Positions 24 to 48,166 of a DNA stretch of 64,000 nucleotides are shown piece after piece. Within the stretch, counting starts at the first letter, position 1. Each line of letters opens with the position of its first letter. A program made the position numbers and the translations under genes. The notes below the pieces were generated by a model. It was not told where the DNA came from and searched no databases. It was given only the letters and a program-made list of their open reading frames with translations. Source of the DNA: a virus; IMG/VR virus record IMGVR_UViG_3300005099_000100, positions 1-64,000 of that record; one strand, 5' to 3'.

Positions 24-36
24 GTTTTCAATATAA
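24..36 (+). promoter_or_regulatory. Copy 1 of conserved GTTTTCAATATAA motif
   Basis: Exact GTTTTCAATATAA, ending on the base before the ATG of the ParB-TGT fusion gene. Three identical copies lie at 1681, 16677 and 19007, all on the plus strand before genes. The TATAA end resembles a -10 or late-promoter box. If it is one here, the transcript would start inside the ORF or be leaderless. Confidence 0.5.
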
Positions 37-1671
37 ATGAAAGGTAATATTAAAGATTTAGGAGTTATAGATATATATTTATCTGCTATTAAAAGAAATC
101 CTCATCAACCTCGTTATATATTTGATCAAAATAAATTATTAGAATTAGCTAGCAATATTAAGAATAATGGATTATTACAACCTATAGTAGTACGTAAAGT
201 AGATAATTCTTATATTATTATAGCAGGTGAAAGAAGGTATAGAGCTCATTTATTATTAAATAAGGATAAAATAAAAGCTAGAGTAATAGAGTGTGATGAT
301 CAAACCGCTTATGAACTGACCTTATTAGAAAATATTCAACGTGAGAATTTATCCCTATTAGAAGAAGCTAAAGGGTATAAGTATCTAAGAGAACGTTTCG
401 ATTATTCCCTTAAAGAACTTAGTAAGGTTACGTCCAAATCAATGTCTAATATATCTAATATTATGTCTATACTAGACGAGGATCCTAGAGTACTAAAATA
501 TATAGATAATGGTACTCTTACACTAGCAGCGTACGTGTGGATAAAGCAACTACCTAACGTGGAGGAGAAGCTCAAATTACTCGAGAAACTTGAAAAAGGT
601 ACACTACCTCGAAACAAAGTACGCGCTTACGTAGAAAAGATAAAAGAGATATACGTTATGTCGAAGCGGGTTGGGCTAAAGCCCGAAGATATTAATATAT
701 ATGAACATAAAGGAAAAGCAGGAAGATTTGACATATATAGTGAAGTATTCCCCGCTGACTTTAGTTTTTACTTTATTATAGATTTTGTAATTGATGTAAA
801 TGACCTTCCGTTTTTACCCGTTAAAAATATATTACTATCAGCATATAACTTTATGTATGATAAGAGTGTTTCTAAGAGATTATCTATGATACTACTAGAA
901 AAAAGTTACTTAAATCGTATATTTGTAGATAGTGGGGTTATGCCTGCAGCAAGACGTAAAGATTGGAACTTCTTTAGTAAGACTAAAGAACTATTTGAAT
1001 TTTATGAGTTCGTAAAGCCTTTTGCATGTGTAAGTTTAGACGTACCTATGTACCCTTTTGTATATAACACGTGGAATAAATCGAAAGAAGAATTACTAGA
1101 TATAACTATACAAAATGCAATAAAGTTTAGAGATTGGAAACCTTCGTTTAATACTATAAAGGTATTTCCTTTACAAGGTACTACAAAAGAAGAATATCTA
1201 GAGTCCTTCTATAGATTAGAAGAACTAGGGATATTTAATTTACCCAACGTAGCTATAGCATTTGGAGGGCTAGCTACTACTGGATTAACTCAGCAAAAAG
1301 AGATTGTTTCTTATGTAACTAATAATAGTAAGTTTAAGGAATACAAAAGTGAGTTCAAATTCAAATTTGTTCATGGTTTTGGTATAGGTAACCCTCAGAG
1401 AATTATAGAGTTATATAAGTTAGGTGTTAATTCTTTTGATGCATTAACAGTTTGTATCATGACTAATACTGGATGGTACTGGTTACGTGACAATTCTAAA
1501 GTAAGACACTTGATACAAGAGAGTCCTTTAACTCGTAAAGTGCGATTACATTTTAATATGTCTTCGTTTTGGGGGCAATTGGCAGAAAAATTTTCATTGC
1601 TACGGGGGATTCCACTTAAACAGGAACAAGAAAGCGTTGAAAATCTCGATAAACTCACTAATTTTAGATAG
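37..1671 (+). CDS. ParB-like domain fused to TGT/DpdA-like DNA transglycosylase domain
   Basis: The N-terminal half (about residues 10-205) is ParB/Spo0J-like: NPHQPR at 21-26, GERRYRA at 64-70, ENIQREN at 98-104, then a helix-turn-helix. GERR and ENxQR are the CTP-binding motifs of ParB CTPases. The C-terminal half (about 240-520) follows the tRNA-guanine transglycosylase barrel motif by motif: VDSG (D298), SLD (D335), LQG (Q380), GGLA (410-413), HGFGIG (446-451) and GVNSFDAL with D468 at the nucleophile position. The CxCxxC zinc site of tRNA TGTs is absent, which favours a DNA substrate as in DpdA. No ParA gene is near. A 13-base repeat touches the start codon and recurs just after the stop. 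Inferred role: ParB-guided replacement of guanine by a 7-deazaguanine in DNA. The superfamily call is firm, the substrate is not. Confidence 0.8.
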   Translation: MKGNIKDLGVIDIYLSAIKRNPHQPRYIFDQNKLLELASNIKNNGLLQPIVVRKVDNSYIIIAGERRYRAHLLLNKDKIKARVIECDDQTAYELTLLENIQRENLSLLEEAKGYKYLRERFDYSLKELSKVTSKSMSNISNIMSILDEDPRVLKYIDNGTLTLAAYVWIKQLPNVEEKLKLLEKLEKGTLPRNKVRAYVEKIKEIYVMSKRVGLKPEDINIYEHKGKAGRFDIYSEVFPADFSFYFIIDFVIDVNDLPFLPVKNILLSAYNFMYDKSVSKRLSMILLEKSYLNRIFVDSGVMPAARRKDWNFFSKTKELFEFYEFVKPFACVSLDVPMYPFVYNTWNKSKEELLDITIQNAIKFRDWKPSFNTIKVFPLQGTTKEEYLESFYRLEELGIFNLPNVAIAFGGLATTGLTQQKEIVSYVTNNSKFKEYKSEFKFKFVHGFGIGNPQRIIELYKLGVNSFDALTVCIMTNTGWYWLRDNSKVRHLIQESPLTRKVRLHFNMSSFWGQLAEKFSLLRGIPLKQEQESVENLDKLTNFR

Positions 1672-5954: not shown

Positions 5955-6416
5955 ATGAAAAAGCTTAAACATTTAATTATAACAATTATATCTGCTATTA
6001 CAGGAGCAATAGGTGGTCAAGGTATAAAATTTTTAAGAAGATTTTTTATACCTTTAATGCTTGCTTCTTTAGCTTATTTTAAATACCAAAATTTATGGGT
6101 TTTATTAGTATTATCTTTAATAGGATGTTATAGTTTGGGGTATGGAGAAGATTCGTTTTTAAGAAAATTATTTAAAGGTAGTAACGAATTAACAAGAGGT
6201 TTTATTTCTCTATTAAAATGTTTATCGCTTTTAGTTTTAGCAATATTAAGCGGAAAATGGATAATCTATATTATAGGTAGTATTTCTATTATTTTAGTAG
6301 GAAGTTTTGTAAGTTGGAGAGGTTTAGGAACTGTTAAATTTTTTGATAAAGAGCTATTAGTTGTTGATTTAATCATTTATGGTGTTGATAGTCTAACGGG
6401 AGTATTATTACTATGA
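5955..6416 (+). CDS. Polytopic membrane protein
   Basis: 153 residues with about four to five hydrophobic segments (around 7-22, 31-45, 48-62, 85-100 and 103-118) and basic loops. It overlaps the next gene (ATGA). No family is recognised with certainty. A membrane protein between fibre genes and head genes could act in lysis (holin-like) or superinfection exclusion, but no partner endolysin is visible in the window. Confidence 0.6.
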   Translation: MKKLKHLIITIISAITGAIGGQGIKFLRRFFIPLMLASLAYFKYQNLWVLLVLSLIGCYSLGYGEDSFLRKLFKGSNELTRGFISLLKCLSLLVLAILSGKWIIYIIGSISIILVGSFVSWRGLGTVKFFDKELLVVDLIIYGVDSLTGVLLL

Positions 6417-9400
6417 TTATTAAAGTATTAGGTACAGGAGCTGAAACTACAAAACAACCTAAACCATATTTAGGAAAATATAAACCATCTTGTTTAATAA
6501 CAACAGCTAAAGGAACAATTTTGATTGATGTAGGAAAAGACATATTTGATAAATTATCTAAAGAGGAAATTCTAAATATTGATTCTGTACTGTTAACTCA
6601 CGGGCATCAGGACGCTATAGGAGGTATAGCCCTATTAAATAAATTTTTAGATGAACATGATAAGTTTGTAGAGGTATATGCTAATGATCAGACTATTTCC
6701 ATAATTAAACATAAATGGAAAAAGAACCACCTTAGTAATTATAACTTTAATGTGTTATCATCTAGAAAAAAATACAATATAAATGGAATAACAGTAAAAC
6801 CGATTAAAGTATTTCATGATAAACATTATCCTACTTTTGCTTATAACTTTGAAAATGTGTTCTTTTATTCTTCAGATATGGGACCTATTTTTGATGAATA
6901 TGAGATCAAATATATGTCAAATCAAATACTAGCAATTTTTGATGGAGCTTATTGGGATAATCAAATTGCTTTAAATAATCATATAGCAGTATTAGAATAC
7001 TTGTCTTATATTCTAAGTCTCAATAACAAGTATACCTATTTTATTGGTATGGGTAATCAATGGCCTTCTTTTGATAAAGCTAATGCTATTTTAAAGCAGA
7101 AGCTCAAAGAATATAAAGAAAAAAATCCAGAGTGTAAAGTCGTAGAATGTAGAGCTTTACGTGAAGGAGAAAAATTTAGAATTGACCTTAATAAAATTTT
7201 ACCTGTAGACGAACGTCTTATTTTAAAACCCGCGCTTACTGATATAGTAAAAAATCCAAGTATTATTCGTAATATAGATAATAAAGAGTTAGCTATGGTT
7301 CATCTAAGATGCCATCAGTTATGGGGGATTAAGAAATCCAAACTAGTATTAAAAGCTCACGTTATAATTGTAAAAGAGTTCTTTAGACGTAAGATGAATC
7401 ATCATATTGTTAACGATTTAGATAGAAAAACATATCGTATTTTAGGTAGAGAAATTAAAGCTTTTGAGATTTGGAACGAGTTAAAAGATGAAATCGTAAT
7501 TAAAAGTAATATAGTTAAATTTGTAGGATCTTCTCTAAAAGATAGTAATCCTAACGATTTAGATGTTATAGCTCCTCATGCTCTTGAAAAGATCTTACAC
7601 CAATTTATCGAAAAATACAATCCACATTTTATTGGGGATATCGTTAGTCATGGAGATGTAGTAAATGTATACGATCTTATATTAAAAAAGAAAAAGAATT
7701 TAATAATTTTAAATAGACTTCTTCCTGATTATACTAAACAATATAATTTAAGTAAAATTATTAGTAAACTTGATTTATCTCATGAGATGTATATAGTAGA
7801 ACCTGTTATTAATGGTAAAGCAGAAATAGTAGTAGATAAAGAAAGTAGGATAATATATGAGCACATAATAACTGATAATAAAGAAATCATTACCGATTTA
7901 CTAGCAATTGGAAGAGATAATTTATTTAATGAGATTTTAGCAAATCGTATTTTCTTTTTACATAAGAAGTGGCTTGATAAATCTGAGCCCAAATATCTAC
8001 CTTTACGTTGGTTTGTTAACAAGAAATCACTGTTATCATTTTTAAAGAGCTTACGACATAAGTATAGTAAAGTAATGATTCGCCCTGCCAATTCTAAGTA
8101 TTATGATGGTAAATTTGTTATAAGCTTTAAATCGTTTGTTTGTGAATGTTTAGACTGCGGTTTTATTATGGAAAGTTCAAAGCATTGTAGAGAAATTAAG
8201 TGCCCTAGATGTGGTGGAGAGATGCGAAGGGCCTCTCGTCCAGGTATAGGAAAAAGTGCTACTTTAGCTCCATTTTCTAAGTTTCCCCCACTTAAAGCTA
8301 CTGGATCCGCTTATCATGAATTAGAATATTTTAATCCTGAAGACGCTTGGAACTTTTTTGGAAAATATGAAGTATCTCAACATGGTAAAGTTAGATTTGA
8401 ATATAAAATTGATGGTTGGCGCTGTCTTCACGGCGAAGATGAAATAATCACTATTGATAAGCTTACTAAAGTTCAACATATTAAGGAAGGTGATTTAGTA
8501 CTGACAGGTGATGGAACTTACCAACCGGTTAAGAAAGTTTTATCTAGATACTTTGATAAGGACAGAGATGAAATATATGAAATTAAAGTTTTTGGAGGTA
8601 TTTCATTTAAAGTTACTCAAGATCATTTACTTCTAACTAATAGAGGATGGATAAGAGCAGATCAGCTAAAATCTAACGATTATATATTTGTACCGTACCC
8701 TAAAATAGAAGTACCTATACCAGAATTTTTGAAGGATAAAGAATTGAAATTAACCTGGAGAGATGTAGGTTATACTAAAAAAATAAAGTTGACCCCTGAG
8801 TTTTGGAGATTTGTAGGTCACTGGGTTGGAGATGGTATGGGTAACTATGTAACAGGTAACAAACATTATACACATTCAGTAGCTCTTGCAAAAGGTAATA
8901 AAGATCAAGACCTAATTCGGGAATATACACGAATTATTAAAGAAGTGATTAAAGCAAAACCTCATATTTCAAAGTGGAGCTCTATAACTAGCGTATATTG
9001 TCTCGATGAGCCTTTATTGAAGTGGTTAACTCAGCATTTTAAAACTAAATATAATAGTATACAGAAATCAAAAAGTTATTATCATAAGACTATACCTTTA
9101 TGGTTAGTTCACCTAGATAATGAAAGTTTCGAAGCTTTTTTAACTGGATATGCCGAAGCAGACGGTACAAAAAGGCAGTTACCTATATCTACTGAATCTC
9201 GAGCAATCGCTTCACGCTTGTATCAACTGCTTTTAGCGCGAAAGACACCTGCAAGTTGTAAAAAATGGAAAGTACAACGTGATGGTAAGAGATTCATATA
9301 TTATCGTATATCCCTAATAACACGTCATATTAAAAAATCAGATAAAGGAGTGTATTATCAAGTTAAATCTGTACGTAAGTTACAATATTCCGATCAATCA

Positions 9401-11296
9401 CTACATGCGCTAAAATATAAAGTGACTAAATTATATGATTTAGTATTAGATACCCCACATTCTTTTGTAGGACCCGGAGTTACCTATCATAATTGTATTT
9501 TACAGGCAAAAGAAAATAAAGACACTTTAATTTATTTTGAGGATAGTAAAACGAATAGATCCGATCATTTTAGCAGGTTAGTTTCTGAATTAAATAGTCT
9601 TCATTCGTCAGGTATTATACTCGATGGTGAGCTTATGGAAAAAGGAGAAGATGGTAAATGGAAATCACGTCACGATTTGATGAAATGGTCTCAGTCAAAA
9701 CACCCTGGATCTGATGAAAACGTTAGAGTATTCGTTTTTGATATTTTGTATTATAATGGTAAGGATTTACATAATCTTCCTTTTAGTGAGAGACGTAAGG
9801 TACTACTTGAAGTGTCTAAGAAATTTAAGAAGCATTTTATATTAGCTCCTGGATTTGATATTACTTCTAAACAACAACTTATAAGTAAGTTCAATAGCCT
9901 TAAAAATAAACCAGGCGCATATCATCTTTATGGTAAAAATGGAATAGATGGTTTGATGGGTAAATCTTATTCAGGAAACTATCCTCTTACAGGTAAAACT
10001 AATTCATGGATAAAACTTAAATATTCATATGAAGTAGATACAATTATATTAGAGAAATTTTCTGCAGGTCAAGGAGCTTATAACTATAAAGTAGGTTATA
10101 GCATTCCGCAGGATAAAGTAGACAAGTTTACTCCTGTTATAGAACTAAATGGTAAATATTATGGAGTGTTAGGAAAAACTTTTAACACGAAAATTAATGG
10201 TTCTGTAGGACAGATCCTAAACATCGCAGCTACTGAATATAAAAAGGAAGTAGTAGGCGATAAAACTAAATATACTTTGTTTCAGGCGAGAGTGATTACA
10301 CTAAAACCTGATAAAAAAGAACCAGATAGTTACTTAGTAATTGACAGAATGAGTGTTTCTAAAGCCTCGTCTTTTTATGAGTTTTTTATTATTAAGGAAA
10401 CCCCTAAGACTGGTCAGTGGACTATTGAAGAGGGCATGACCGGAAGATACGCGATACAATGTCACTCTCGAGGTATTCGTCCCGAACTAGTTGATTATCT
10501 ACAGACTACTGATCTGAAAGCTTATGGACTGAATCCTGCTTATTTTGTACCTACAGATAAAGAATTGTCTGTATTAGAAAGTATAGTTCCAGGCGATTGG
10601 AAGAGAGCTATCGCTAAAGCTGCTGCAAAAAATGAGTCAAGTAAAGAACTTACCAAACTAATTTCTACATTACTTAGAAGTGATAAGTTTAAACAACTTT
10701 CCCCTAAAATGAAAAGTGTTGTGGCAAGATTGGACCCAGTTTCAATACATCAGGATCTTAGATTAGTACCTTCAGGAAAGGATTATTTTGAAGGAGGTCA
10801 CTGGACTACTCCAGGTAACCAGTTCAAAGAGAATAAGTTACTAAAAATTGAAGATCACATTTATTTACAATTTATGTTAAAACAGCCTCATGTAGGAGAA
10901 TCTGCATCTACTAAAGAACCAGTTGTAAGAGGACCCGCAAGCTGGTTAAGTGTAGGCGCAGGAAAACCTCTTATAGTACCTCCTAATTCCATAGGAAGCA
11001 CCTCTAAAGAGTACGCATGTTTTTGGAGACATGATATAGGTTCTTGGTACGCAGGTAGACAAACTTCACCTCATGGTAAACATTTTAAGTTGTTTAAGTT
11101 TAAAGGAGGTAAACTTAACGGATGGATCATTTTTATGTGGGCTCCTGTTGGAGGTAAAAGAATATGGTTATGTTATAAGCCTAGGCATCAAGATAAGTAC
11201 GAAAGAGAACGTGAAAGAAATAAACAATTTGACACAGATGTTGAACGTCTTTACGGGGTGTTCTATAAATTTCTAATAAATAGTAATATTTATTGA
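6413..11296 (+). CDS. Giant ATP-dependent DNA ligase: MBL-fold + nucleotidyltransferase + Zn ribbon + ligase + LigD-PE-like, with intein
   Basis: 1627 residues. N-terminus: metallo-beta-lactamase fold with THGHQD (H63, H65, D67). About 290-390: a nucleotidyltransferase-like stretch with VGSS followed by NDLDVI. About 577-605: a zinc ribbon (CxCxxC ... CPRC). Then the ATP-dependent ligase with motif I KIDGWR, K665 being the expected adenylated lysine. An intein (671-1027) interrupts directly after motif I. The ligase resumes at C1028 (LDGELM, later WIKLKY). From about 1440, HQDLRL (H1446) and GKHFKLFKFKGG resemble the 3'-phosphoesterase domain of LigD. Role: sealing and end-processing of DNA breaks. 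Its place between fibre genes and the prohead protease is odd and hints at packaging-linked repair. The ligase and MBL calls are strong, the PE and NTase calls tentative. Confidence 0.8.
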   Translation: MIIKVLGTGAETTKQPKPYLGKYKPSCLITTAKGTILIDVGKDIFDKLSKEEILNIDSVLLTHGHQDAIGGIALLNKFLDEHDKFVEVYANDQTISIIKHKWKKNHLSNYNFNVLSSRKKYNINGITVKPIKVFHDKHYPTFAYNFENVFFYSSDMGPIFDEYEIKYMSNQILAIFDGAYWDNQIALNNHIAVLEYLSYILSLNNKYTYFIGMGNQWPSFDKANAILKQKLKEYKEKNPECKVVECRALREGEKFRIDLNKILPVDERLILKPALTDIVKNPSIIRNIDNKELAMVHLRCHQLWGIKKSKLVLKAHVIIVKEFFRRKMNHHIVNDLDRKTYRILGREIKAFEIWNELKDEIVIKSNIVKFVGSSLKDSNPNDLDVIAPHALEKILHQFIEKYNPHFIGDIVSHGDVVNVYDLILKKKKNLIILNRLLPDYTKQYNLSKIISKLDLSHEMYIVEPVINGKAEIVVDKESRIIYEHIITDNKEIITDLLAIGRDNLFNEILANRIFFLHKKWLDKSEPKYLPLRWFVNKKSLLSFLKSLRHKYSKVMIRPANSKYYDGKFVISFKSFVCECLDCGFIMESSKHCREIKCPRCGGEMRRASRPGIGKSATLAPFSKFPPLKATGSAYHELEYFNPEDAWNFFGKYEVSQHGKVRFEYKIDGWRCLHGEDEIITIDKLTKVQHIKEGDLVLTGDGTYQPVKKVLSRYFDKDRDEIYEIKVFGGISFKVTQDHLLLTNRGWIRADQLKSNDYIFVPYPKIEVPIPEFLKDKELKLTWRDVGYTKKIKLTPEFWRFVGHWVGDGMGNYVTGNKHYTHSVALAKGNKDQDLIREYTRIIKEVIKAKPHISKWSSITSVYCLDEPLLKWLTQHFKTKYNSIQKSKSYYHKTIPLWLVHLDNESFEAFLTGYAEADGTKRQLPISTESRAIASRLYQLLLARKTPASCKKWKVQRDGKRFIYYRISLITRHIKKSDKGVYYQVKSVRKLQYSDQSLHALKYKVTKLYDLVLDTPHSFVGPGVTYHNCILQAKENKDTLIYFEDSKTNRSDHFSRLVSELNSLHSSGIILDGELMEKGEDGKWKSRHDLMKWSQSKHPGSDENVRVFVFDILYYNGKDLHNLPFSERRKVLLEVSKKFKKHFILAPGFDITSKQQLISKFNSLKNKPGAYHLYGKNGIDGLMGKSYSGNYPLTGKTNSWIKLKYSYEVDTIILEKFSAGQGAYNYKVGYSIPQDKVDKFTPVIELNGKYYGVLGKTFNTKINGSVGQILNIAATEYKKEVVGDKTKYTLFQARVITLKPDKKEPDSYLVIDRMSVSKASSFYEFFIIKETPKTGQWTIEEGMTGRYAIQCHSRGIRPELVDYLQTTDLKAYGLNPAYFVPTDKELSVLESIVPGDWKRAIAKAAAKNESSKELTKLISTLLRSDKFKQLSPKMKSVVARLDPVSIHQDLRLVPSGKDYFEGGHWTTPGNQFKENKLLKIEDHIYLQFMLKQPHVGESASTKEPVVRGPASWLSVGAGKPLIVPPNSIGSTSKEYACFWRHDIGSWYAGRQTSPHGKHFKLFKFKGGKLNGWIIFMWAPVGGKRIWLCYKPRHQDKYERERERNKQFDTDVERLYGVFYKFLINSNIY
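8423..9493 (+). other. Intein with LAGLIDADG endonuclease inside the DNA ligase
   Basis: Residues 671-1027 of the ligase precursor (357 aa). Begins with Cys (CLHGEDEI, block A), ends with HN (VTYHN) followed by extein Cys+1. Two LAGLIDADG-type motifs are visible: FVGHWVGDG (about 800-808) and FLTGYAEADG (909-918). VTQDHLLLT is the block B region. Splicing would join KIDGWR to CILQAK, restoring the ligase active site. Confidence 0.9.
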
Positions 11297-13499: not shown

Positions 13500-14831
13500 A
13501 TGGTTCTCTTAAACAATAAAAATCCTCAAGATTTACAAATCATTTATAAATCCAAAAATAAAGGAGTATATAGGGGTGAAGGCTCTGCTATTTTTGAACC
13601 CGAAGGTAACCCTTTAATATTAGGTTTTTGTTTTCATCACTATAATAAAGTTTATCCTATTAAGTTAATAAAGACCGCCATTAAAAGAAATCTAGGTATT
13701 ATCTATGTATGCGATACTTTACCTAATCATTATATAGTAGACGATCATATTGTATATGTTGTAACTGGTTTTGAGTGGTTTACTCATTTATTATTTAAAG
13801 ATATTACTCAATTTAAAGGAGTATTTCATAATGGTACTGAAGATGGTAAACGCTACGCTAATATAGTTTCTTCTAGAGGTATGTTTCGTGTACCTCTAAT
13901 ACAGTCTATTGAAGATTTAAAGCAAATTAAACCTATAGATAAAGTAGTAAATAATGCAAGGCTTACAAAAGTTTTAATTGAGACGTTTGATGGTTTAGGA
14001 GATGTATTGATGTCTCTCCCTTCTGCAAAGACTCTAGCAGAACAAGGACACGAAGTTCACTATCTAGTTCATCCTCATTTTGTACCTATCTTTAAAAATC
14101 TTGACTTTGTTAAAAAAGTATATTCTAATAAGCATATCATATCAACCTCTGAATTTGGTTATTACATATCCTTAACTCATAAACTTAGTGACTATAGAGC
14201 CCCTTTTAATCAACAACACCGTATATTTTCAACCGCTTATTTTTTTGGATTAGCTCCTAAAGATTTAGTAATAAAAAAACCTATTATAGTACTCGATCAT
14301 GATGAAATGACATGGGCAGTTAACTTTTTAAGTAAATATTCAAAGCCATTACGCCAAAATGTAGGTATTTGTTGGCAAGCAAACGGGGATCACAGGAGTT
14401 ATTTACCTACTTATACTCAAAAACTATGTACTTTACTAAGTAAGCACAAATATATTCCTTATATTATAAGTGCAAATCCACGTCAGTTTGATAATGCGGT
14501 TAATTTAGGAGGTAAACTAACTCTTAGACAAATGTTTTCGCTAGTATGGTCCTTAGATTATATTATAACTGTTGATACTGGAGTATTACATGTAGCAGGT
14601 GCTTTTGATAAACCTACAATAGCACTTATGGGTCCTATTGTAGCAGATTGGAGATGTTCTACTTATAAAAATTGTTATCCTATAGAGCCCAAAGTGTCTT
14701 GTTTTCCTTGTGCTGATAGACAATGGGTTCCTAGAGAGAAGCAAAAGTGTAGACTTATTAACTCTTATTGTTTGACTACTATAACTCCTAATAAAATAGT
14801 TAGAGTATTAAATAGAATAGCAAGAAGATGA
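13500..14831 (+). CDS. GT9-family glycosyltransferase with extra N-terminal domain
   Basis: 443 residues. From about 158 it matches the GT9 (heptosyltransferase-like) family: IETFDGLGDVLMSLPSAK, the N-terminal GDxLxxLP loop, then VGICWQA, LGGKLTLRQMFSLV, and the donor-site TVDTGVLHVAGAFDKPTIALMGP. A Cys-rich end (CFPCADRQW...C) is common in this family. The first 150 residues (KGVYRGEGSAIFEPEG, GFCFHHYN) form a separate domain I do not recognise. It lies between the capsid gene and the head-tail connectors and overlaps the next gene by 4 bases. Likely adds sugar to a virion protein or host glycan. Confidence 0.8.
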   Translation: MVLLNNKNPQDLQIIYKSKNKGVYRGEGSAIFEPEGNPLILGFCFHHYNKVYPIKLIKTAIKRNLGIIYVCDTLPNHYIVDDHIVYVVTGFEWFTHLLFKDITQFKGVFHNGTEDGKRYANIVSSRGMFRVPLIQSIEDLKQIKPIDKVVNNARLTKVLIETFDGLGDVLMSLPSAKTLAEQGHEVHYLVHPHFVPIFKNLDFVKKVYSNKHIISTSEFGYYISLTHKLSDYRAPFNQQHRIFSTAYFFGLAPKDLVIKKPIIVLDHDEMTWAVNFLSKYSKPLRQNVGICWQANGDHRSYLPTYTQKLCTLLSKHKYIPYIISANPRQFDNAVNLGGKLTLRQMFSLVWSLDYIITVDTGVLHVAGAFDKPTIALMGPIVADWRCSTYKNCYPIEPKVSCFPCADRQWVPREKQKCRLINSYCLTTITPNKIVRVLNRIARR

Positions 14832-15811
14832 AAATACATAAATATTTTTTAATAACAGATACGCACTATGAGAATCCTAATCCAGGCGATATTTTAATAG
14901 GTAAAGGAATTGAGTATCTAATAACCCAAGTAGAGAGACGTTATAATAACTTTCCTATTTTTAATTATATAAATATTTTTGGATCTGATGATGCTATTTG
15001 GGGTAGGGTATATAAGGAAGCGGACTTTATTATTGTATGCGGAACTCCTCAGTTAGGACTTGATCATATACCTCAACATTTAGGACAAACTTTTTATGAC
15101 AAATTATGGCATGCTAAACGTCTTGGAATCATAGTAGCTAATTTATGGTTAGGAATATGCATGGGTTCTCCTACTTTAAATATCCCTTCTTTTGTAGAGC
15201 GACTATATTGCTCGTCAATCACTAAATTTATCACTAAAAATTTTAAGTTATATGATTTGATTATCTCACGAGATTTATTAACCTATCGAGTTTTAAGTAG
15301 ACTAAAAATTGAAAATCATTTACTTATTGATTCAGTTTTTTATTCTCCGTATTATTACAAAATAAATAACAGTAGCGAATCTATTAATATAGTAGTACCG
15401 CGACATATTCCATCTCACAACGCTCGAATAATAGATACGTTTAAGAAGTTTGATAAATTCGTTGTACTTACTCACGACATTACCGACTTCAATGCTTATA
15501 AAGAACATTTTTCGAACATAATATGTGTAAATAATCCTAAATCTCTAGTAGAAATATATTCTAAAGCTTCCACAGTAATATCTTTAAGAGTACATGGATC
15601 AGTATTAGCTACATTTTTTGGAGCTAAAGTAGCTAATATTAGTATGGATAGTAGATCTAACATTTTATCTAGTGTAGGTATTAGATCTACTAGTATTAAC
15701 AACTTAAAGACGTTAAGTTTCAATAGAATCAATATAAAACCCTACTTGGAAAATAACTTTAATAAGTTTTTATATTTATTTTATAATAAGTGTATAAAGG
15801 CACATGAATAA
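14828..15811 (+). CDS. Polysaccharide pyruvyl transferase-like protein
   Basis: 327 residues. NPGDILIGKGIEYL near the N-terminus, FIIVCGTPQLGL, LIISRDLLTYRVL, a middle Rossmann half (VVPRHIPSHNARII) and SKASTVISLRVHGSVLATFFGAKVANI near 250-275 match the CsaB/WcaK-type polysaccharide pyruvyl transferase fold, which adds pyruvate ketals to glycans. Overlaps both neighbouring GT9 genes, so it is co-translated with them. The exact acceptor cannot be inferred. Confidence 0.7.
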   Translation: MKIHKYFLITDTHYENPNPGDILIGKGIEYLITQVERRYNNFPIFNYINIFGSDDAIWGRVYKEADFIIVCGTPQLGLDHIPQHLGQTFYDKLWHAKRLGIIVANLWLGICMGSPTLNIPSFVERLYCSSITKFITKNFKLYDLIISRDLLTYRVLSRLKIENHLLIDSVFYSPYYYKINNSSESINIVVPRHIPSHNARIIDTFKKFDKFVVLTHDITDFNAYKEHFSNIICVNNPKSLVEIYSKASTVISLRVHGSVLATFFGAKVANISMDSRSNILSSVGIRSTSINNLKTLSFNRINIKPYLENNFNKFLYLFYNKCIKAHE

Positions 15812-16700
15812 GATACTCATTGAATCTTTTGATGGTTTAGGAGACATTATTATGTCATTACCAGTTGCTAGATACTACCACAACAAAGGATATGAGGTAG
15901 ACTATATAGTAAAACGTTATATCATTCCACTTTTTGATTTTGTACCTTATGTTAAAAATGTATATTACTCTAATCATTATATAGACACTAATATTTACCA
16001 GTGTAAATTTTCTATCGGAGGTAAATTAAGTCAGTACCACCTAGAAACTTGCAGACAGCATCGTACTGATGCTTCTTTCATATTGTGTGATGTTGACCCT
16101 AAAAGTATCTCTAGCAACTTAAAAGTGCCTCTAATAGTAATACCTATTTCATATAGCCAGTGGGCTTCTCAATTTATGAAAGACAATAAGATCAATATAG
16201 TACTTAGTCTTATCTCTCAGTCCAAGTATAGAACATATTTTTACTTTAATGAGTTGATTTCTTTACTTGATACTTCTTTGTTTAATATAATATTTGTTCA
16301 CTCTAGAAGGATACCTATAAATATTAGTAATGGAATTAATCTAACCGGCAAAACTAATATTACCCAATTTATAAGTGTAGTTAGTAAAGCAGATATAGTG
16401 TTAAGTGTAGATACTAGCACATGTCAGGTAGCAGGAGCTTTAGGTGTTCCTTTACTAGCTGTATTTACTACCATTCCTCCAGAATGGAGACTTAAATATT
16501 TTACTAAAGTTAAAGTAGTAACTCCTACGATAGCCTGTTCTCCCTGCTGGGACCTAACTCGGATTAATGAACGAACCCGTCGTGAGTGTGTTGAGAGTCA
16601 AGTACCTAAATGTATTCAGGAGATACCACCCAAGTTGATACATACTGAATTACTAAATTTTATTAAGGAACTAAATGTTTTCAATATAAAAGGGCTATGA
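15804..16700 (+). CDS. GT9-family glycosyltransferase
   Basis: 298 residues. IESFDGLGDIIMSLPVARY at the N-terminus is almost the same loop as in the GT9 domain encoded at 13500-14831, and LTGKTNITQFISVVSKADIVLSVDTSTCQVAGALGVPLLAVF carries the donor-binding site. It lacks the extra N-terminal domain of the first copy. The two probably arose by duplication. A Cys-rich C-terminal stretch (CSPCWDL...CVESQVPKC) is shared. Its last codons contain the third copy of the conserved 13-base motif. Confidence 0.8.
   Translation: MNKILIESFDGLGDIIMSLPVARYYHNKGYEVDYIVKRYIIPLFDFVPYVKNVYYSNHYIDTNIYQCKFSIGGKLSQYHLETCRQHRTDASFILCDVDPKSISSNLKVPLIVIPISYSQWASQFMKDNKINIVLSLISQSKYRTYFYFNELISLLDTSLFNIIFVHSRRIPINISNGINLTGKTNITQFISVVSKADIVLSVDTSTCQVAGALGVPLLAVFTTIPPEWRLKYFTKVKVVTPTIACSPCWDLTRINERTRRECVESQVPKCIQEIPPKLIHTELLNFIKELNVFNIKGL
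16677..16689 (+). promoter_or_regulatory. Copy 3 of conserved GTTTTCAATATAA motif
   Basis: Exact copy inside the last codons of the second GT9 gene (it encodes VFNI), seven bases before the ATG at 16697. Part of the 16-base AATGTTTTCAATATAA core shared with copies 2 and 4. Confidence 0.5.
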
Positions 16701-17209
16701 TTTTACTTGTTTTTTTGAATGAACACGATAAACAGTCATATTTGTTAGGAAGAGATTTACCTTCATATTTAGTAGGTGATTATGTTAAAATATATACTAG
16801 GTACAAAGTTTCTAAGTACGAGAGATGTGATACTAAAGACACTCTTAGTAAAATTAGAGAGTATGCCCAGGTATTTGATAAAATCATTATAAGTTTTGGA
16901 TTGAGATTATTTCCTCCTTCAGCTTATAAAGAGATCATTCAAGAGTATAAAAAAACTAACGAAAATCTAGTGTTTCTTAAAAAACTTAAAGGTTCAAAAA
17001 CTTGGTCGATTGTTAATAATAAGCTAAAATTTGATAACTATAGAATTGCCGATACCGGATTATTTATTTTAAAATCCCAAGATATTTTGAACAGTAAAAC
17101 TAATAATTTTAACACCTTTTTAAAAGAGCTAACTAAGTTACAAAAGTTAACATATAAGTTTGTACCGTATTGGTTATTTACGAATAAATCTAAAAGGAGT
17201 AAAAGATGA
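16697..17209 (+). CDS. Unknown protein ending the glycan cassette
   Basis: 170 residues, alpha/beta-like: ILLVFLNEHDK strand at the start, KIIISFGLRLFP in the middle and ADTGLFILKSQDIL near 120-135, weakly reminiscent of nucleotidyltransferase or glycosyltransferase A folds. The C-terminus is strongly basic. It overlaps both neighbours by four bases. I cannot assign a function; the position suggests it belongs with the glycosyltransferases. Confidence 0.5.
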   Translation: MILLVFLNEHDKQSYLLGRDLPSYLVGDYVKIYTRYKVSKYERCDTKDTLSKIREYAQVFDKIIISFGLRLFPPSAYKEIIQEYKKTNENLVFLKKLKGSKTWSIVNNKLKFDNYRIADTGLFILKSQDILNSKTNNFNTFLKELTKLQKLTYKFVPYWLFTNKSKRSKR

Positions 17210-18110: not shown

Positions 18111-18573
18111 AATAGAACTAAACTCTAAAAAACTAGATAGATTTATACGTAAGTTTAACCGCTTGGAAACTTTACCGCGTCGACTACGGTCTGATATGTA
18201 CAGACTAGGTGAAGGGTGCTATAAGTATATAAAGAGTATTATACCCGTATCAAAATTACATAAACCTCACTTACGTAACAACTTTATTATTAAAGTATAC
18301 AGAAGCGCTCCTCTTAGTGTGACTTTAAAAATATCGCCCAAACCTGAGTTTACATATGCTATATTTTTAGCTCTAGGAGTTGATATTCCTACTAGATTTC
18401 CCCGAAGGGCTAAAGCTTTAAGATTTATTGGATATCACGACAAAAAAGTTGTATTTGCTCGTAGAGCTAAGGGTTTTACATTTAGTCATGTAAAATATGT
18501 TTCTAAAGGAGAACATTGGCTTAAAAAGAATTTTAAATCGTATATAGATACTACTTTAAGGAGATACTTATGA
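18103..18573 (+). CDS. HK97 gp10-like tail completion protein
   Basis: 156 residues, basic. The opening KLDRFIRKFNRLETLPRRLRSDM and the later SIIPVSK, HLRNNF and a C-terminal WLKKNFKSYI helix follow the gp10 family pattern (neck or tail completion). The internal FPRRAKALRFIGYHDKKVVFARRAK stretch is typical of the central beta region. It fits between stopper and tail terminator. Confidence 0.65.
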   Translation: MIKIELNSKKLDRFIRKFNRLETLPRRLRSDMYRLGEGCYKYIKSIIPVSKLHKPHLRNNFIIKVYRSAPLSVTLKISPKPEFTYAIFLALGVDIPTRFPRRAKALRFIGYHDKKVVFARRAKGFTFSHVKYVSKGEHWLKKNFKSYIDTTLRRYL

Positions 18574-18992
18574 ATATTACTAGTACTATTATTAATATTC
18601 TTAGAAATGACACTAGCATTCAATCTTTTTTAGGTGCTACAAGTAGTACTGATTGCCCAGTTTTTACTTCTTTTAATAATGATAGTTCTGTAAATAAGCA
18701 AATAAACATTACATTAGAGTACGGTGAAACCATTCCTTTTGATAGTTCTGGTAAAACTCATGACGGTACCGTACGTATATTTGTAGTAGTTAAAGATAAT
18801 GTAGATGAGCCAATAAAGACTATTAATAATATAGCTAAACGTATTTTAGAACTCATTGATATAAAAGCTCTTACTTCCCCTGAGGGTACTATTTATTGGG
18901 TACAAAAAAAAGATAGTGATTTTACTCATTATGAAGCTCTTCGTTTATATGAGTTAATGTTAACTTTTAGGTTCGTTATAACAGAAAATTAA
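18570..18992 (+). CDS. Tail terminator protein
   Basis: 140 residues, alpha/beta: an N-terminal helix (STIINILRNDTSIQSFLG), a strand VRIFVVVKDN, helix INNIAKRILELID and a final strand LYELMLTFRFVI. This is the fold order of SPP1 gp17/lambda U-type tail terminators. Last gene before the tail tube, as expected. Confidence 0.65.
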   Translation: MNITSTIINILRNDTSIQSFLGATSSTDCPVFTSFNNDSSVNKQINITLEYGETIPFDSSGKTHDGTVRIFVVVKDNVDEPIKTINNIAKRILELIDIKALTSPEGTIYWVQKKDSDFTHYEALRLYELMLTFRFVITEN

Positions 18993-19006
18993 GTGGTTAA
19001 ATAAAT

Positions 19007-19019
19007 GTTTTCAATATAA
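19007..19019 (+). promoter_or_regulatory. Copy 4 of conserved GTTTTCAATATAA motif (tail tube promoter candidate)
   Basis: Exact copy in the 69-base gap before the tail tube gene, leaving a 42-base leader with its own SD (AAGGAGGTG). This is the copy whose spacing best fits a promoter: a start about 6-8 bases downstream would give a normal leader. The tube is expected to be expressed at high level. Confidence 0.6.
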
Positions 19020-19061
19020 GGGCGTTAGAGTTAGCTTAAATATAATTAAGGAGGTGTTATA

Positions 19062-19436
19062 ATGAAGTTCTCTGTAGGGAGAATTAAACTAGGTTCCGAT
19101 ATTATTGCTAAATGTACGGGTATTACCGTGCGTTTTGATGGTAACCCTGTAGATTTATATGCTGGAGGATATAAAGATCCTCATGAAATTGAGATAGGTA
19201 ATAGAGCGACTACTATTACTGTTGAGTATGCGGAATGGTCTAATAGTATAGATCCCGATACAGTATTACCTAATACATATGTTGATGTAGAACTATTAGC
19301 ATCTGCTGCTGATTCTAACAGAGGTATTAGCGGAGTTACATTATCTAGATGTAAAGCGGTATCTTGGGAAGTTGCGTCTACTCAGGATGGTTTTGTAACT
19401 TATAGATTAGAATTAAGGAAAGCACTTAGTTCATAA
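19062..19436 (+). CDS. Tail tube protein
   Basis: 124 residues, beta-rich. It begins FSVGRIKLG and ends with RGISGVTLSRCKAVSWEV, a STQDGFVTYRLELRK strand. A tube-like monomer of this size fits a small siphophage tube. The gene has its own leader and promoter-like motif and is followed by the two chaperone genes and the tape measure, the classical order. The same fold pattern recurs in the protein at 29631-30398. Confidence 0.75.
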   Translation: MKFSVGRIKLGSDIIAKCTGITVRFDGNPVDLYAGGYKDPHEIEIGNRATTITVEYAEWSNSIDPDTVLPNTYVDVELLASAADSNRGISGVTLSRCKAVSWEVASTQDGFVTYRLELRKALSS

Positions 19437-19468
19437 TATAACTATTTAGTAGAAGGAGGTTTAAAAAC

Positions 19469-19789
19469 ATGGAAGAACGTGTAATACAGTCTGCAATACT
19501 CAAAGTTAAATTATTAAATGGGTCGTTTATATCGATAAGACCTCTCACCTTAGCTGAACGTAAGAAGTGTCTTGAAATTTTACCTCAAGCTTTTGATAGT
19601 AACCCTGATAAATTCGCTGAACAATACATTGAAGCTCAAGAGTCTATTCTACATTTTATAATTTCTAGAACTAATCCTAACTTCTCGAAAGAAGATGTTA
19701 ATAAACTGCTGGATGGTAGTCTTATCGAACAAATAGTTAAATTTGCTCTAAAAGACCCGTTTAGTGAAATTCTAGGTTTTTCTGGATAA
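19469..19789 (+). CDS. Tail assembly chaperone (G-like)
   Basis: 106 residues. SAILKVKLLNGSFISIRPLTLAERKKCLEIL at the start and a helical remainder, a pattern common to the small tail assembly chaperones (lambda G-like). SD AGAAGGAGGTTTAAAAAC before ATG. The stop overlaps the next start (TAATG). Position between tube and tape measure supports the call. Confidence 0.7.
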   Translation: MEERVIQSAILKVKLLNGSFISIRPLTLAERKKCLEILPQAFDSNPDKFAEQYIEAQESILHFIISRTNPNFSKEDVNKLLDGSLIEQIVKFALKDPFSEILGFSG

Positions 19790-35219: not shown

Positions 35220-38081
35220 TTAGAGAAAATCATCTAATCTATCAAGTTTTTCGGTTACTTCTATATCACTAGTATCTACTACAGTAGGACCTATATCGGA
35301 CTCCTTTAGTACTGCTGAATATAGAGCACCAGCTAATGCGTCACTTACATCCTTTGAACCATATTTGAGTCCCTCTTCTTTTAATCTTTGCGTACTTTTT
35401 TGAGGATGGTCTACCTTACCATTTTCAAGCTTAAGCTCTTTAAGTTCTCGTATAAGTACTAAATAATTATATATATTAATTTTACCTTGGTATAATAGTC
35501 CTTTTAAGGTATCATATGGTTTTCTAGTTCTATCAACGGATATTAGATCACTAGTGATGCCTCTACGTTCAAGTACTTGTCTAAAGTCCAAAGATTGATA
35601 CCCGTCAAGTGAACAGGTTACTATATCGAAGCCCATATCATTAAGTCTAAATATAAATCTTCTAATATCCTCAAAGTTTATTTCCTTTTCTGAGGGTCTA
35701 ATCTGAATTGCTAAATCTACATAATATCCTATTTGAGTGGGTGTAAGTTGATAAGTATGTAATAACACTAAACCAGCACAATCTCGTTCTACTCCGTCAG
35801 ACCCAATACCTCCTTGAGATAAGTCAATGTGTATAAAATATTCAGCTCCGTCGTGACGCTCCAGTTCAAGTTCTAACTTTTTTCTAAGCTCTTCATTATG
35901 AGGAGCTTTTAAGTACTCTTGCTCTAATTTATAAGCTTCATAACTATAATTAGGTTTAAACCAGGGTTGAAACGTTAATCTTACTAATTCGTCTTCTGTA
36001 ACAAATATAGGTTTATCATAAGGTAAATCTTCCCAAATAATAGGAGATGGTCTATCGAAGTCAATACATCGGTCTAATATTAGTTCGAACTTTTTAAAAT
36101 ATCTGTTTGCGGTAGTTTTGGGGAATATACATTCGTATCGTCTCATTGCGTCCTCAGGATCTTCTTTATATAGAGGTAAATAATCTTCTTTTAACTTGTA
36201 AATCCTGTGTTTTATAAGATAAGGATGGGCTCCTTCTTTAGAACGAACTTCCCACGGTGCTTTTCTACTTCTAAATATTTGGCTCTTCATATCTTCAGGT
36301 AATTCATCTACTTCATTATAGTGAGTCATCATAAAATCATAAGGATCTCTAGGATAAGATATCATTATAATTTTATAGTGATCATGAAAACGTGAATGTG
36401 CTGTATTTTTTATATTTTTATACCTCACTTTTGCTCTATCATATCTTACTTCAGCGATTTCGTCAAAAATAACCATTAGAATATTTTTTCCCTCACCAGA
36501 ATATCTTGAAGCGTCTAAAGCGTAAGCTTCTATATAGTTAGGTAATACTACTTTTCTTGTTTGAATCCCTTTATTATCTCGTAAATCTGCACCTATCTCT
36601 TCAAAGAAGTTTCTTCCTGTTGCTGGATTTCTAACTTTTTTAAGGCATGTGGTAAATTGTTTAAAAAATACCTCCTTAGCATGCTCTTCATTTACACTCA
36701 TACATGCAATTACTATTGGAGTACTCGCGCCTATATGGAAATATTCCTGGGGGCTCTTTAGACACGATAACCAGTAACAGCAATAAACAAGTGTACGAAC
36801 TGTTGTAAAATCTTTTGAATTATGATTTAAAAAGCCATTCATTAGGTAGTTATAATATTTAGGTACTGAAAAATCATAAAAGTCCTCTTCACATAAAAGT
36901 TCTATAGATTTAATCTCTTTAAACTTAAGACTTACTTCATTTTTGGGTAATTCCTTAGATCCGTCTAATAAATCCATTAGTAAATATTTATCCACTAATA
37001 CTATATGATACCCTTTAGAACGTACCGCGTTCAATTTTATATAATCTACATCACGTACCCACCCCTTAATTTCGTAGTAAGTTTTAGTACCGTCATCATG
37101 ATAAACTATAAAATCAGGTTGGTAGTTATGTTGTTGTCCCCTATAGGTATATTTAAACCACTGAGTACATCGTTTCCATACGTACGCTTTACTATCTAAC
37201 CATGACGCAAAAGCTTTCTCAAAAGATCCCTGAATTTTAACTCTACCCGCAATTGGAGATACATAATATTCCCATTTACATCTACCACCTTTACCATGAG
37301 CATATTTTTCAGGTTGACTTAGAGCTATTTGTCTTAACTTCTCTGCAACTCTTTGTTGTAAAATTTTTCTTTCCGGGGATTTTAACCACTGTTGATATTT
37401 CGCGGATTTTTTTAAGCCTTCACTGATTGCACGAGGATTATTTTTCTTACCATATCTTCCGTTTTGGGGACCTTTACGTCCTAATAACCTACTGCGCTCT
37501 TCTTTACTTAAAGTACTTAAATAAACATTACCCGGATCTTTAAAGGCCACTAGATCTCCTACTTTTAAATGACGTAGCTCTTTCCAACCCGTAGGAGTAT
37601 AAAATTTATGTTCAAGAGTACATCTCATAACTCTATTTTTTTTGCCAGTTTTTATAATAACTTTATAGATCTTTGATTTTCCTTTGTATACTGGGATATC
37701 AGCTAACACTGTCTCAAATTTAGACTCATTAAAATTATAAGATATAACATGAAAGGGTTTTCGTAACTTAGCCCATGTTTTGATATAATGTTGTTCTTTG
37801 GTTACTGGATCTCTATACATAATATTACCGCTGACACAACCCCCCTCCCCCCAAAGTAAGAGTATTTCTTTTATGTCAGTTCTCCAATCTTGAAAGTCAG
37901 GTGTAAACACTTGGTTTATTATTCTATACTGTTCAGGAAACAAAGGTTCTTTTAACCATACTTCAAAAAATTCTTTAGGGGTTACTGGTTTGATTTTAAA
38001 TTTACTTGTTGAAGTATTAATATTATGTAGTGCACTATCTATATGTTTGTCCCATATGTTTTTAAATTGTTTAGGATCCAT
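35220..38081 (-). CDS. terL: Terminase large subunit, interrupted by an intein
   Basis: 953 residues before splicing. N-terminal: WLKEPLFPEQYRIINQVFT and LLLWGEGG, the Walker A region. The intein (82-421) splits the Walker A. After it come SKDFTTVRTLVYC, the Walker B region (LMVIFDEIAEV), and the nuclease domain with FIHIDLSQGGIGSDG, VTCSLDGYQSLDF and KYGSKDVSDALAGA near the end. ATPase that cleaves and pumps DNA into the prohead. Spliced length about 613 residues, usual for a large terminase. In mature protein the Walker A would read WGEGGSKDFTT, with Ser before the Lys. Confidence 0.85.
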   Translation of the reverse strand: MDPKQFKNIWDKHIDSALHNINTSTSKFKIKPVTPKEFFEVWLKEPLFPEQYRIINQVFTPDFQDWRTDIKEILLLWGEGGCVSGNIMYRDPVTKEQHYIKTWAKLRKPFHVISYNFNESKFETVLADIPVYKGKSKIYKVIIKTGKKNRVMRCTLEHKFYTPTGWKELRHLKVGDLVAFKDPGNVYLSTLSKEERSRLLGRKGPQNGRYGKKNNPRAISEGLKKSAKYQQWLKSPERKILQQRVAEKLRQIALSQPEKYAHGKGGRCKWEYYVSPIAGRVKIQGSFEKAFASWLDSKAYVWKRCTQWFKYTYRGQQHNYQPDFIVYHDDGTKTYYEIKGWVRDVDYIKLNAVRSKGYHIVLVDKYLLMDLLDGSKELPKNEVSLKFKEIKSIELLCEEDFYDFSVPKYYNYLMNGFLNHNSKDFTTVRTLVYCCYWLSCLKSPQEYFHIGASTPIVIACMSVNEEHAKEVFFKQFTTCLKKVRNPATGRNFFEEIGADLRDNKGIQTRKVVLPNYIEAYALDASRYSGEGKNILMVIFDEIAEVRYDRAKVRYKNIKNTAHSRFHDHYKIIMISYPRDPYDFMMTHYNEVDELPEDMKSQIFRSRKAPWEVRSKEGAHPYLIKHRIYKLKEDYLPLYKEDPEDAMRRYECIFPKTTANRYFKKFELILDRCIDFDRPSPIIWEDLPYDKPIFVTEDELVRLTFQPWFKPNYSYEAYKLEQEYLKAPHNEELRKKLELELERHDGAEYFIHIDLSQGGIGSDGVERDCAGLVLLHTYQLTPTQIGYYVDLAIQIRPSEKEINFEDIRRFIFRLNDMGFDIVTCSLDGYQSLDFRQVLERRGITSDLISVDRTRKPYDTLKGLLYQGKINIYNYLVLIRELKELKLENGKVDHPQKSTQRLKEEGLKYGSKDVSDALAGALYSAVLKESDIGPTVVDTSDIEVTEKLDRLDDFL
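36819..37838 (-). other. Intein in terminase with PD-(D/E)XK-type homing endonuclease
   Basis: Residues 82-421 (340 aa). It starts with Cys (CVSGNIMYRDP) and ends with HN before extein Ser+1. Block B reads RCTLEHKFYTPTGW. Instead of LAGLIDADG motifs it has a NUMOD3-like GPQNGRYGKKNNPRAISEGLKK stretch (204-225) and then a PD-(D/E)XK pattern: QPDFIVYHDDGTKTYYEIKG with D323, E337 and K339. It would be a rarer kind of intein endonuclease. SCAN: the sequence at its 5' junction contains two long G runs. Confidence 0.8.
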
Positions 38082-39411: not shown

Positions 39412-39736
39412 TGAAACTCCTATCATCAAATGTTTTATATTTACGTTTGTTATACTCATAATGTAACAAGAAAAATATATTAGCAGCGGCGTGTGATAAA
39501 TGAGATATATTACTTTCAGGATCTTTATCTTCACCCCGCCACCATTTCCATAGGTGTCTCATACACGCAGAAAATAGTCTACTGTATGAAATACCTTTTT
39601 CCCAGTTATGAGGTTCATATTTATTGGCACCATAGGTAAATACTTTAGCTACCTCAAATAAAGCGCTAGGGGGTATTAAGGCAAACTTTTCTTTATTACT
39701 ATCAAATTTATGACCTGCTACAAATTTATCTTTCAT
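39389..39736 (-). CDS. dATP/dGTP diphosphohydrolase-like protein (DUF5664)
   Basis: 115 residues. GHKFDSNKEKFALIPPSALFEVAKVFTYGANKYEPHNWEKG, SACMRHLWKWWRGEDKDPESNISHLSHAAANIFFL is the all-helical NTP pyrophosphohydrolase-like core known in phages as a dATP/dGTP diphosphohydrolase N-terminal family. Start moved to 39736 after GGGAGGTAAAG. Beside the queuosine and nucleotide-salvage genes it may shape the purine deoxynucleotide pool. Confidence 0.75.
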   Translation of the reverse strand: MKDKFVAGHKFDSNKEKFALIPPSALFEVAKVFTYGANKYEPHNWEKGISYSRLFSACMRHLWKWWRGEDKDPESNISHLSHAAANIFFLLHYEYNKRKYKTFDDRSFNEKNKNT

Positions 39737-40091
39737 CTTTACCTCCCTTTGATATAGAAGTAGTTGCACTCGATTTTTCGGTTTCCCAAACAGTAACTGT
39801 TACATCAATTATATTTTTATTTAATCTTAATATTTTAAGAGCGAAATATCTAGACATATTCTCAGCAGACGGATATTTAAATGTTTTATTTAAATAGGAA
39901 TGATCAAATCTTCTTATCAGATCTTTTATATGCCCAAAATCTACTAACATAGTTTTGTTGTAAATACCCGCTATAGATACTTGTATAGTATAAGAGTGTC
40001 CGTGAAGATGTTTACACTTACCTTCGTGATGTGGTATAAAATGAGAAGCATGAATGATTTCTTCAAGATTTAGTTGTACTATTCTTGTCAT
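39726..40091 (-). CDS. queD: 6-carboxy-tetrahydropterin synthase QueD
   Basis: 121 residues. ASHFIPHHEGKCKHLHGHSYTI carries the catalytic Cys (C26) and the zinc histidines H17, H30 and H32 of the QueD/PTPS family; LVDFGHIKDLI, FDHSYLN (D63, H64) and SAENMSRY complete the signature, with E103 at the substrate-binding end. Converts dihydroneopterin triphosphate to CPH4, the second step toward preQ0. Overlaps the dATP/dGTP diphosphohydrolase gene by 11 bases. Confidence 0.9.
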   Translation of the reverse strand: MTRIVQLNLEEIIHASHFIPHHEGKCKHLHGHSYTIQVSIAGIYNKTMLVDFGHIKDLIRRFDHSYLNKTFKYPSAENMSRYFALKILRLNKNIIDVTVTVWETEKSSATTSISKGGKDER

Positions 40092-46289: not shown

Positions 46290-46775
46290 TTAATCCCATA
46301 AATTTAAAAAATACTCTTTGAATAAATCAAAACCTTTTTCTACTTTTTCTATTTCTTTTTTAGTTAACACTTTAATTCCGTATTTTTTATAACGAGCTAC
46401 TAGCTTTTTACGTAATTTTGGAGTATACTCTTGTAGAGGTATGTATTCTACCTTGATATCTATAACTTTTCTAAATGTCTCAAAAGTATATATTATATTG
46501 TCTAGTATACTTTGCCATTTTTTCACAGGAGACTTTTGACTATCAAGAGAAGTAGGATAACTACTACCTTTTTCTTTGAGTTTTTTTATACAGGGTACTA
46601 TGATGCCACATAAATAATAAGATAAATTATACCAGTCGCCGTCTGACCACCCGCGTTTACCTCTTTGAATAAAATACCTAACTTCTTTAATAGGATAAGT
46701 TACCTTCCAAAACCAGAAATGTTTAAGACTGCTTCTAATATCTTTAAGTACCTGTTTTAAAGTTTTTCTTTTCAT
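46290..46775 (-). CDS. Conserved phage hypothetical protein
   Basis: 161 residues. VRYFIQRGKRGWSDGDWYNLSYYLCGIIVPCIKKLKE has the RGxRGWSDxDxWxLxxYL pattern common to a widespread phage protein of unknown role. It overlaps the DpdA-like gene start by four bases, placing it in the modification operon. Confidence 0.6.
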   Translation of the reverse strand: MKRKTLKQVLKDIRSSLKHFWFWKVTYPIKEVRYFIQRGKRGWSDGDWYNLSYYLCGIIVPCIKKLKEKGSSYPTSLDSQKSPVKKWQSILDNIIYTFETFRKVIDIKVEYIPLQEYTPKLRKKLVARYKKYGIKVLTKKEIEKVEKGFDLFKEYFLNLWD

Positions 46776-47605: not shown

Positions 47606-48166
47606 CTATTTAGTTAAAATATCAGTTACTACACCTTTATTAAGACACTCTACTGCATTTAACCACAACTCACCATTTTTAGCTTTTGTCATATCAGACG
47701 GAGTAAGCTTAGTTCTATTTTTGATAAATTTAAATAAACGATCTTGTTCTTGTTTAAGATAATGAGTTCTATGTAATACCTTAGTAGTATAATCTCCACT
47801 AATTCCCCCAGACATATCATGGATCATCCATACTGAGTGCCTTGTTATAACTCGTTTTTTTCCAGCTAAAGATATGAGTGCTGCCATTGAACACGCTTGA
47901 CCGCTAATAATAGTAATAACTGGTACTTTTATATTATTAATAATATCTATTATAGCAAAACCTTGTCGAACACTGCCTCCAGGAGAATTAATCCACAATA
48001 TAATAGGTTTTTTCGAAATATGATCTAGTGCAAGTAATTTTTTTATAATATTATTCGCTAAATCTGTAGTTATAACTCCAAATAAAAATATTTCTCTCTT
48101 TTGGAGAAGTATTTGATCAATATCAATTTTTAATTCTTTCTTAGTAGACTTTTTTTTCTTTTTCAT
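47606..48166 (-). CDS. clpP: ClpP-like serine protease
   Basis: 186 residues. A basic N-terminus, then REIFLFGVIT, INSPGGSVRQGFAIID, SGQACSMAALI with catalytic S93, and HSVWMIHDMSGG with H116, as in ClpP. The acidic triad residue would follow in the helical region (EQDRLFKF). No ClpX or ClpA partner is visible; phage ClpP-like enzymes may mature virion proteins or hijack host Clp ATPase. Unusual location inside the modification genes. Confidence 0.85.
   Translation of the reverse strand: MKKKKKSTKKELKIDIDQILLQKREIFLFGVITTDLANNIIKKLLALDHISKKPIILWINSPGGSVRQGFAIIDIINNIKVPVITIISGQACSMAALISLAGKKRVITRHSVWMIHDMSGGISGDYTTKVLHRTHYLKQEQDRLFKFIKNRTKLTPSDMTKAKNGELWLNAVECLNKGVVTDILTK

Follow-up and report, generated by a model that had tools for sequence, protein, structure and literature searches.

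The viral DNA analysed here encodes, in a single polypeptide chain, a ParB module followed by an enzyme domain of the DpdA type. The window, by which we mean the whole stretch studied, covers the first 64,000 bases of a virus record that is 67,031 bases long, and the gene lies at 37-1671 on the plus strand, where an open reading frame of 544 amino acids runs from an ATG start with no internal stop. We believe, with a probability of about 0.7, that its product is a ParB-guided DNA-guanine transglycosylase that most likely inserts preQ0. Enzymes of the DpdA kind are already known, and what appears to be new is that one of them shares its polypeptide with a ParB module. An earlier note on this DNA had proposed a ParB-like N-terminal part joined to a TGT-like barrel and a role in DNA base exchange. 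This architecture is confirmed here by profile searches, predicted fold and family conservation, the base-exchange role is backed by the operons of two relatives, and the motifs listed in that note (NPHQPR, GERRYRA, ENIQREN, VDSG, SLD, LQG, GGLA, HGFGIG and SFDAL) are all present in the reading frame.

The N-terminal half has the domains of a ParB/Noc protein. Residues 12-101 (70-339, plus strand) correspond to the ParB N-terminal domain, of ParB-CTPase fold (PF02195, 8.5e-26; PDB 1vz0, 6sdk and 7bnk), and residues 103-203 (343-645, plus strand) to the ParB HTH domain (PF17762, HTH_ParB, 5.2e-12). This half also matched TIGR00180 (5.7e-39) and the Noc model (1.4e-44), and the PDB structures nearest to residues 1-203 were those of Spo0J/ParB and Noc, CDP-bound ones included. 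Alignment to ParB structures placed the C-motif GERRYRA at residues 64-70 (226-246, plus strand) and the P-motif ENIQRE at residues 98-103 (328-345, plus strand), both canonical in the window. A C-terminal dimerisation domain, a normal feature of ParB, was not found in the fusion, where the TGT barrel takes its place.

IMG/VR yielded six further homologues. Three of them are full-length fusions, 57%, 27% and 25% identical to the window protein; one is frameshifted, and two are cut by contig ends. A scan with a DNA pattern (HGFGxG, then an [ST]FD-type motif 14 residues on) found L008, and later scans yielded L017, L020, L026, L027 and L028; with the window these make up the seven homologues compared throughout. 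L007, L015 and L016 were rejected as chance matches to the pattern. L008 (548 aa) is 57% identical to the window fusion end to end (531 aa aligned), exceeds the Pfam cut-offs for ParB_N, HTH_ParB and TGT, and lies on a 63-kb phage contig syntenic with the window. The fusion is also complete in L026 (539 aa) and in L027 (530 aa), both of which exceed the cut-offs for ParB_N, HTH_ParB, DpdA (PF23859) and TGT (PF01702). The reading frame of L020 (481 aa), also a fusion, is broken near the C-terminus, while the contig end leaves L028 with its HTH and L017 with the TGT part only. Two clades can be distinguished, one of the window and L008 and the other of the remaining five, with about 25-27% identity between them. 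Since L008, L026, L027, L020 and, in part, L028 share the same architecture, the fusion is neither a chance event nor an assembly join. The position of the gene at the extreme contig end, 37 bases in, could have suggested two genes joined through assembly or a frameshift; this is refuted by the independent fusions in L008, L026, L027 and L020, which share one alignable linker.

Single-sequence scans of IMG/VR with the TGT half and with the full protein gave no matches, and two scans of genome contigs brought up a Lokiarchaeota locus of the ordinary dpd-like kind and nothing else. No full-length ParB-DpdA fusion was present in 72,556 plasmid records (PLSDB). The search in other phages advised in the earlier note was thus productive in IMG/VR, with its six homologues, and returned no full-length fusion from 50,697 phage records (INPHARED). 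All the contigs are metagenomic and linear, so that genes missing from the window or its relatives may lie off-contig.

The remainder of the chain, residues ~238-512 (748-1572, plus strand), is predicted to be a TGT/DpdA-like barrel, an assignment that by sequence profile is weak in the window protein alone and firm across the family. Taken by itself, the TGT half of the window protein gave PF01702 at 1.4e-4, under the Pfam cut-off, and matched the DpdA models NF041059 (NCBIfam, 1.3e-6) and PADLOC (1.6e-7) below their curated cut-offs, with 27.5 bits for NF041059 against the more than 200 bits of a bacterial DpdA equivalog. The homologues exceeded the Pfam cut-offs. When a profile from four TGT halves was run against the PDB, the first match was 7ui4 (5.2e-6), the solved structure of DpdA, a DNA preQ0 insertase or DNA-guanine transglycosylase, and the second an archaeal TGT (0.024). 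A first AlphaFold model, for which two sequences were used, had a low overall quality (pLDDT 60); that of the TGT half from four sequences reached pLDDT 77 and pTM 0.79 and matched TGT structures in the PDB (Foldseek, E 1e-9, TM about 0.6), which points to a TGT-type (beta/alpha) barrel. The full-length model matched CDP-bound ParB (3e-10) and 7ui4 (2e-5), so that the comparison with TGT, DpdA and ParB structures recommended earlier bore out both halves. A weak structural match to the TGT half was also seen in UniProt A0A6J5RUN9, annotated as ParB/Sulfiredoxin.

Five residues of catalytic type were unchanged in the seven homologues, down to 25% identity: D298 of DSG (928-930), D335 of SLD (1039-1041), Q380 of LQG (1174-1176), H446 of HGFGIG (1372-1374) and D468 of SFD (1438-1440), all on the plus strand. 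The catalytic aspartates and the base-binding residues are thus present in 7/7. We take D298 and D468 to be the general acid/base and nucleophile positions of TGTs, and they align with the DCG and SID, respectively, of 7ui4. Direct reading of the sequence showed no CxCxxC...H after the barrel, in agreement with the earlier remark that the tRNA-TGT zinc site is missing. It is very improbable that the protein is a tRNA-modifying TGT recruited by the phage, its ParB domain binding nucleic acid non-specifically. Such an enzyme would belong to the same superfamily, and the archaeal TGT did come second in the PDB profile search, but the protein has no zinc site, its profile fits DpdA better, and ParB_N and HTH are DNA-binding domains.

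Strong contextual support for base exchange in DNA came from the relatives of the second clade. In L026 and L027 the genes follow each other on the same strand in the order fusion, PD-(D/E)XK nuclease, phosphoesterase, QueD, QueE, FolE2 and QueC, that is, an operon headed by the fusion and holding the complete preQ0 pathway (the last four genes); the genes of this pathway also lie beside the cut homologue L017. No second PF23859 DpdA was found in the L026 and L027 records, each of which gave one match. This linkage, together with the invariance of D298, D335, Q380, H446 and D468 across 25% identity, makes it improbable that we are dealing with a partition or transcription protein whose degenerate TGT domain serves for dimerisation or base reading only. 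The proximity of the ParB half to Spo0J/Noc and the weak TGT signal of the window sequence by itself would fit such a protein; against it, moreover, no ParA was seen in the ORFs of the window, and the fusion lacks the ParA-binding motif described in PMC12704722.

The window carries its preQ0 genes on the strand opposite to the fusion (minus): FolE2 (GTP cyclohydrolase IB) at 49378-50232 (PF02649, 6.5e-82), QueC at 48163-48834 (PF06508, 4e-65) and QueD/PTPS at 39726-40091 (PF01242, 5.8e-22). On the same strand, at 46772-47593, there is a second, short DpdA-like protein of phage type (273 aa, without ParB), recognised by protein matches: phrog_19058 (8e-13), a Flavobacterium phage 'DNA guanine transglycosylase' (27%, 1e-7) and Campylobacter phage CP220 gp056 (26%). 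The L008 phage has retained FolE2 and QueD together with a short DpdA-like ORF that is divergent; QueC was not found in it, and QueE was sought in the window and L008 phage contigs and found in neither. Because QueE is absent (and, in L008, QueC as well), both phages would need host enzymes, although both contigs may be incomplete. In the related phage (L010), the genes for FolE2 and the short DpdA have as their neighbour a second and very divergent QueD/PTPS-like ORF (HRHLFHV motif, 10528-10905).

In the window and L008 phages the fusion heads the structural-gene strand behind a short element, GTTTTCAATATAA, which in the window directly precedes the fusion start codon (24-36, plus strand) and is conserved before the fusion gene of the relative. 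Further plus-strand copies lie at 1681-1693, 16677-16689 and 19007-19019, just upstream of late-strand genes, and the related genome G001 has them, exact or with 1 mismatch, at the orthologous positions 61558, 46506, 41354 and 39001 (minus strand). The element thus recurs before orthologous late genes in both phages, with up to two mismatches; a Shine-Dalgarno sequence was not visible after it in two cases. We regard it as a probable regulatory element, perhaps a late promoter of the phage.

As to the surroundings, intein-like insertions missing from the relative are present in the window terminase (35220-38081, 953 aa versus 605 in the relative) and primase/helicase (56726-60016, 1096 versus 718 aa), and an intein seems to be present in the ORF at 6413-11296 as well. 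At 13500-17209 the structural gene block contains genes for glycosyltransferase family 9 and polysaccharide pyruvyl transferase and others related to them. A phage contig encodes an M42 aminopeptidase and an MFS/BT1-family transporter at 3799-6040 of L002 (~63.8-66.0 kb of the contig), and L010 has a weak alpha-amylase-like ORF (18570-19472) where the window phage carries other sequence. The contig end at 14308-14511 of L008 translates as a typical Illumina adapter artefact (MIRRPPRSTP...SSAASDVYKRQ).

It counts against our main reading that the second DpdA-like protein of the window phage could do the bulk modification. For the window clade one may therefore consider a division of labour in which the short DpdA replaces guanine in bulk and the ParB-loaded fusion marks particular sites, for instance packaging or late genes. 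We regard this as rather unlikely. It agrees with the presence of both proteins in the window and of the fusion plus a divergent short DpdA-like ORF in L008, with the place of the fusion behind the late-gene element and away from the preQ0 genes in both phages, and with canonical CTP motifs in this clade only. However, no loading site was found in the window, the assignment of the short DpdA depends on 26-27% identity, and the fusion was the sole DpdA found in the operon clade.

The CTP motifs (GERRxRA and ENxQRE) were canonical only in the window and L008 among the seven homologues compared. In the operon clade the C-motif is replaced by SGHCR or SGHRS, and E98 of the P-motif by F or Y in L020, L026, L027 and L028; in L028 only this altered P-motif is visible, and in L017 the ParB part is not. 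Since the motifs are altered or not visible in 5/7 homologues, it would be unsafe to extend CTP-dependent loading to every member of the family, and this also weighs against the main reading. ParB-fold proteins can bind CTP, ATP or GTP, and which of them is not predictable from sequence, according to a survey (PMC12704722). For these reasons we claim nucleotide-gated DNA loading as likely in the window clade only, where the motifs are canonical, with CTP as the hypothesised nucleotide. The window held no parS or Noc-type site at up to 3 mismatches, a further point against the main reading. A perfect 16-bp palindrome, TAAACCCGCGGGTTTA, centred on G+C, lies within an MgtC-like ORF at 62846-62861. 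It is similar to a site of ParB type, but it is a single copy, is not conserved in the relative and was kept as a lead only.

We infer the activity of the fusion, its DNA substrate, its preQ0 product and its clamp behaviour from this comparative evidence. As a ParB-guided transglycosylase, its barrel would cleave the glycosidic bond that holds guanine in DNA, with D468 as nucleophile and D298 as acid/base, and would insert a 7-deazaguanine base, most likely preQ0, which would shield the phage DNA from restriction. The ParB part would replace a separate targeting partner, its HTH and N-domain holding the enzyme on DNA. Because tRNA TGTs are dimers, the barrel may double as a dimerisation domain in the C-terminal position of ParB. 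In the window clade the protein would probably act as an NTP-gated clamp, sliding along DNA and modifying many sites. It is a somewhat doubtful proposal that such a clamp carries the attached base-exchange enzyme for processive 7-deazaguanine insertion from defined loading sites; if true, a modification enzyme would be driven by a segregation-type switch. The canonical-motif and altered-motif clades offer a ready comparison, and the fusion, as a single protein open to purification, would allow NTP binding, DNA loading and base exchange to be studied side by side.

A ParB-DpdA fusion is absent from the literature searched, although an earlier mention elsewhere is possible. Phage DpdA inserts preQ0 into DNA, and DpdA of Enterobacteria phage 9g and DpdA2 of Vibrio phage nt-1 resemble the fusion in being TGT-fold, DNA-modifying enzymes that adjoin preQ0 genes (PMC6884629). 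The 9g enzyme (317 aa) was compared with the fusion by one weak profile alignment only. DpdA2 (464 aa) differs in having its TGT motifs near the N-terminus and a long C-terminal extension, and was rejected as an earlier ParB-DpdA fusion because its record gave no PF02195 match. In bacterial dpd islands, DpdA and a ParB-superfamily partner, DpdB, insert preQ0 in DNA (PMC12839542, PMC11888242), and an ATP-dependent role in the insertion has been assigned to DpdB (PMC12839542). The analogy with this pair drawn in the earlier note was right in kind, since a TGT and a ParB-superfamily component occur together, but in the islands they are encoded by separate genes, and DpdB resembles DndB and is not of the HTH-bearing ParB/Noc type. 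Bacterial DpdA, moreover, keeps a zinc-site-like CxCxxC...H (direct reading of L005 and L021) that the fusion lacks. In a dpd-like locus on a cyanobacterial plasmid (L004, 4821-5744), not far from dpdA, a pair of DEAD/DEAH helicases flanks a second TGT protein, which is short. The single-chain protein bears on how DpdA is directed to DNA and on why DpdB accompanies it in bacteria, for it ties the two activities together directly, in the Rosetta-stone sense. In mycobacteriophage CRB2 a ParB-like gp1 overlaps a DpdA-like gp2 by 4 bp, and QueC, QueD, QueE and FolE follow (PMC6392294); unlike the fusion, gp1 and gp2 are separate chains, no Pfam ParB model matched gp1, and no convincing alignment with the fusion was obtained for either. 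Spo0J/ParB and Noc share its N-domain, HTH and canonical CTP motifs and differ in ending with a dimerisation domain; neither a known parS in the window nor, in the fusion, the ParA-binding motif mentioned above was found. The ParB-fusion survey in the main text of PMC12704722 lists methyltransferases and DUFs in phages, and no TGT, queuine or DpdA. Its ParB-CTPase-DNA methyltransferase fusions likewise join a ParB fold to a DNA-modifying enzyme, but for methyl transfer and not base exchange, so that the protein described here would bring another kind of DNA chemistry into the range of ParB fusions.
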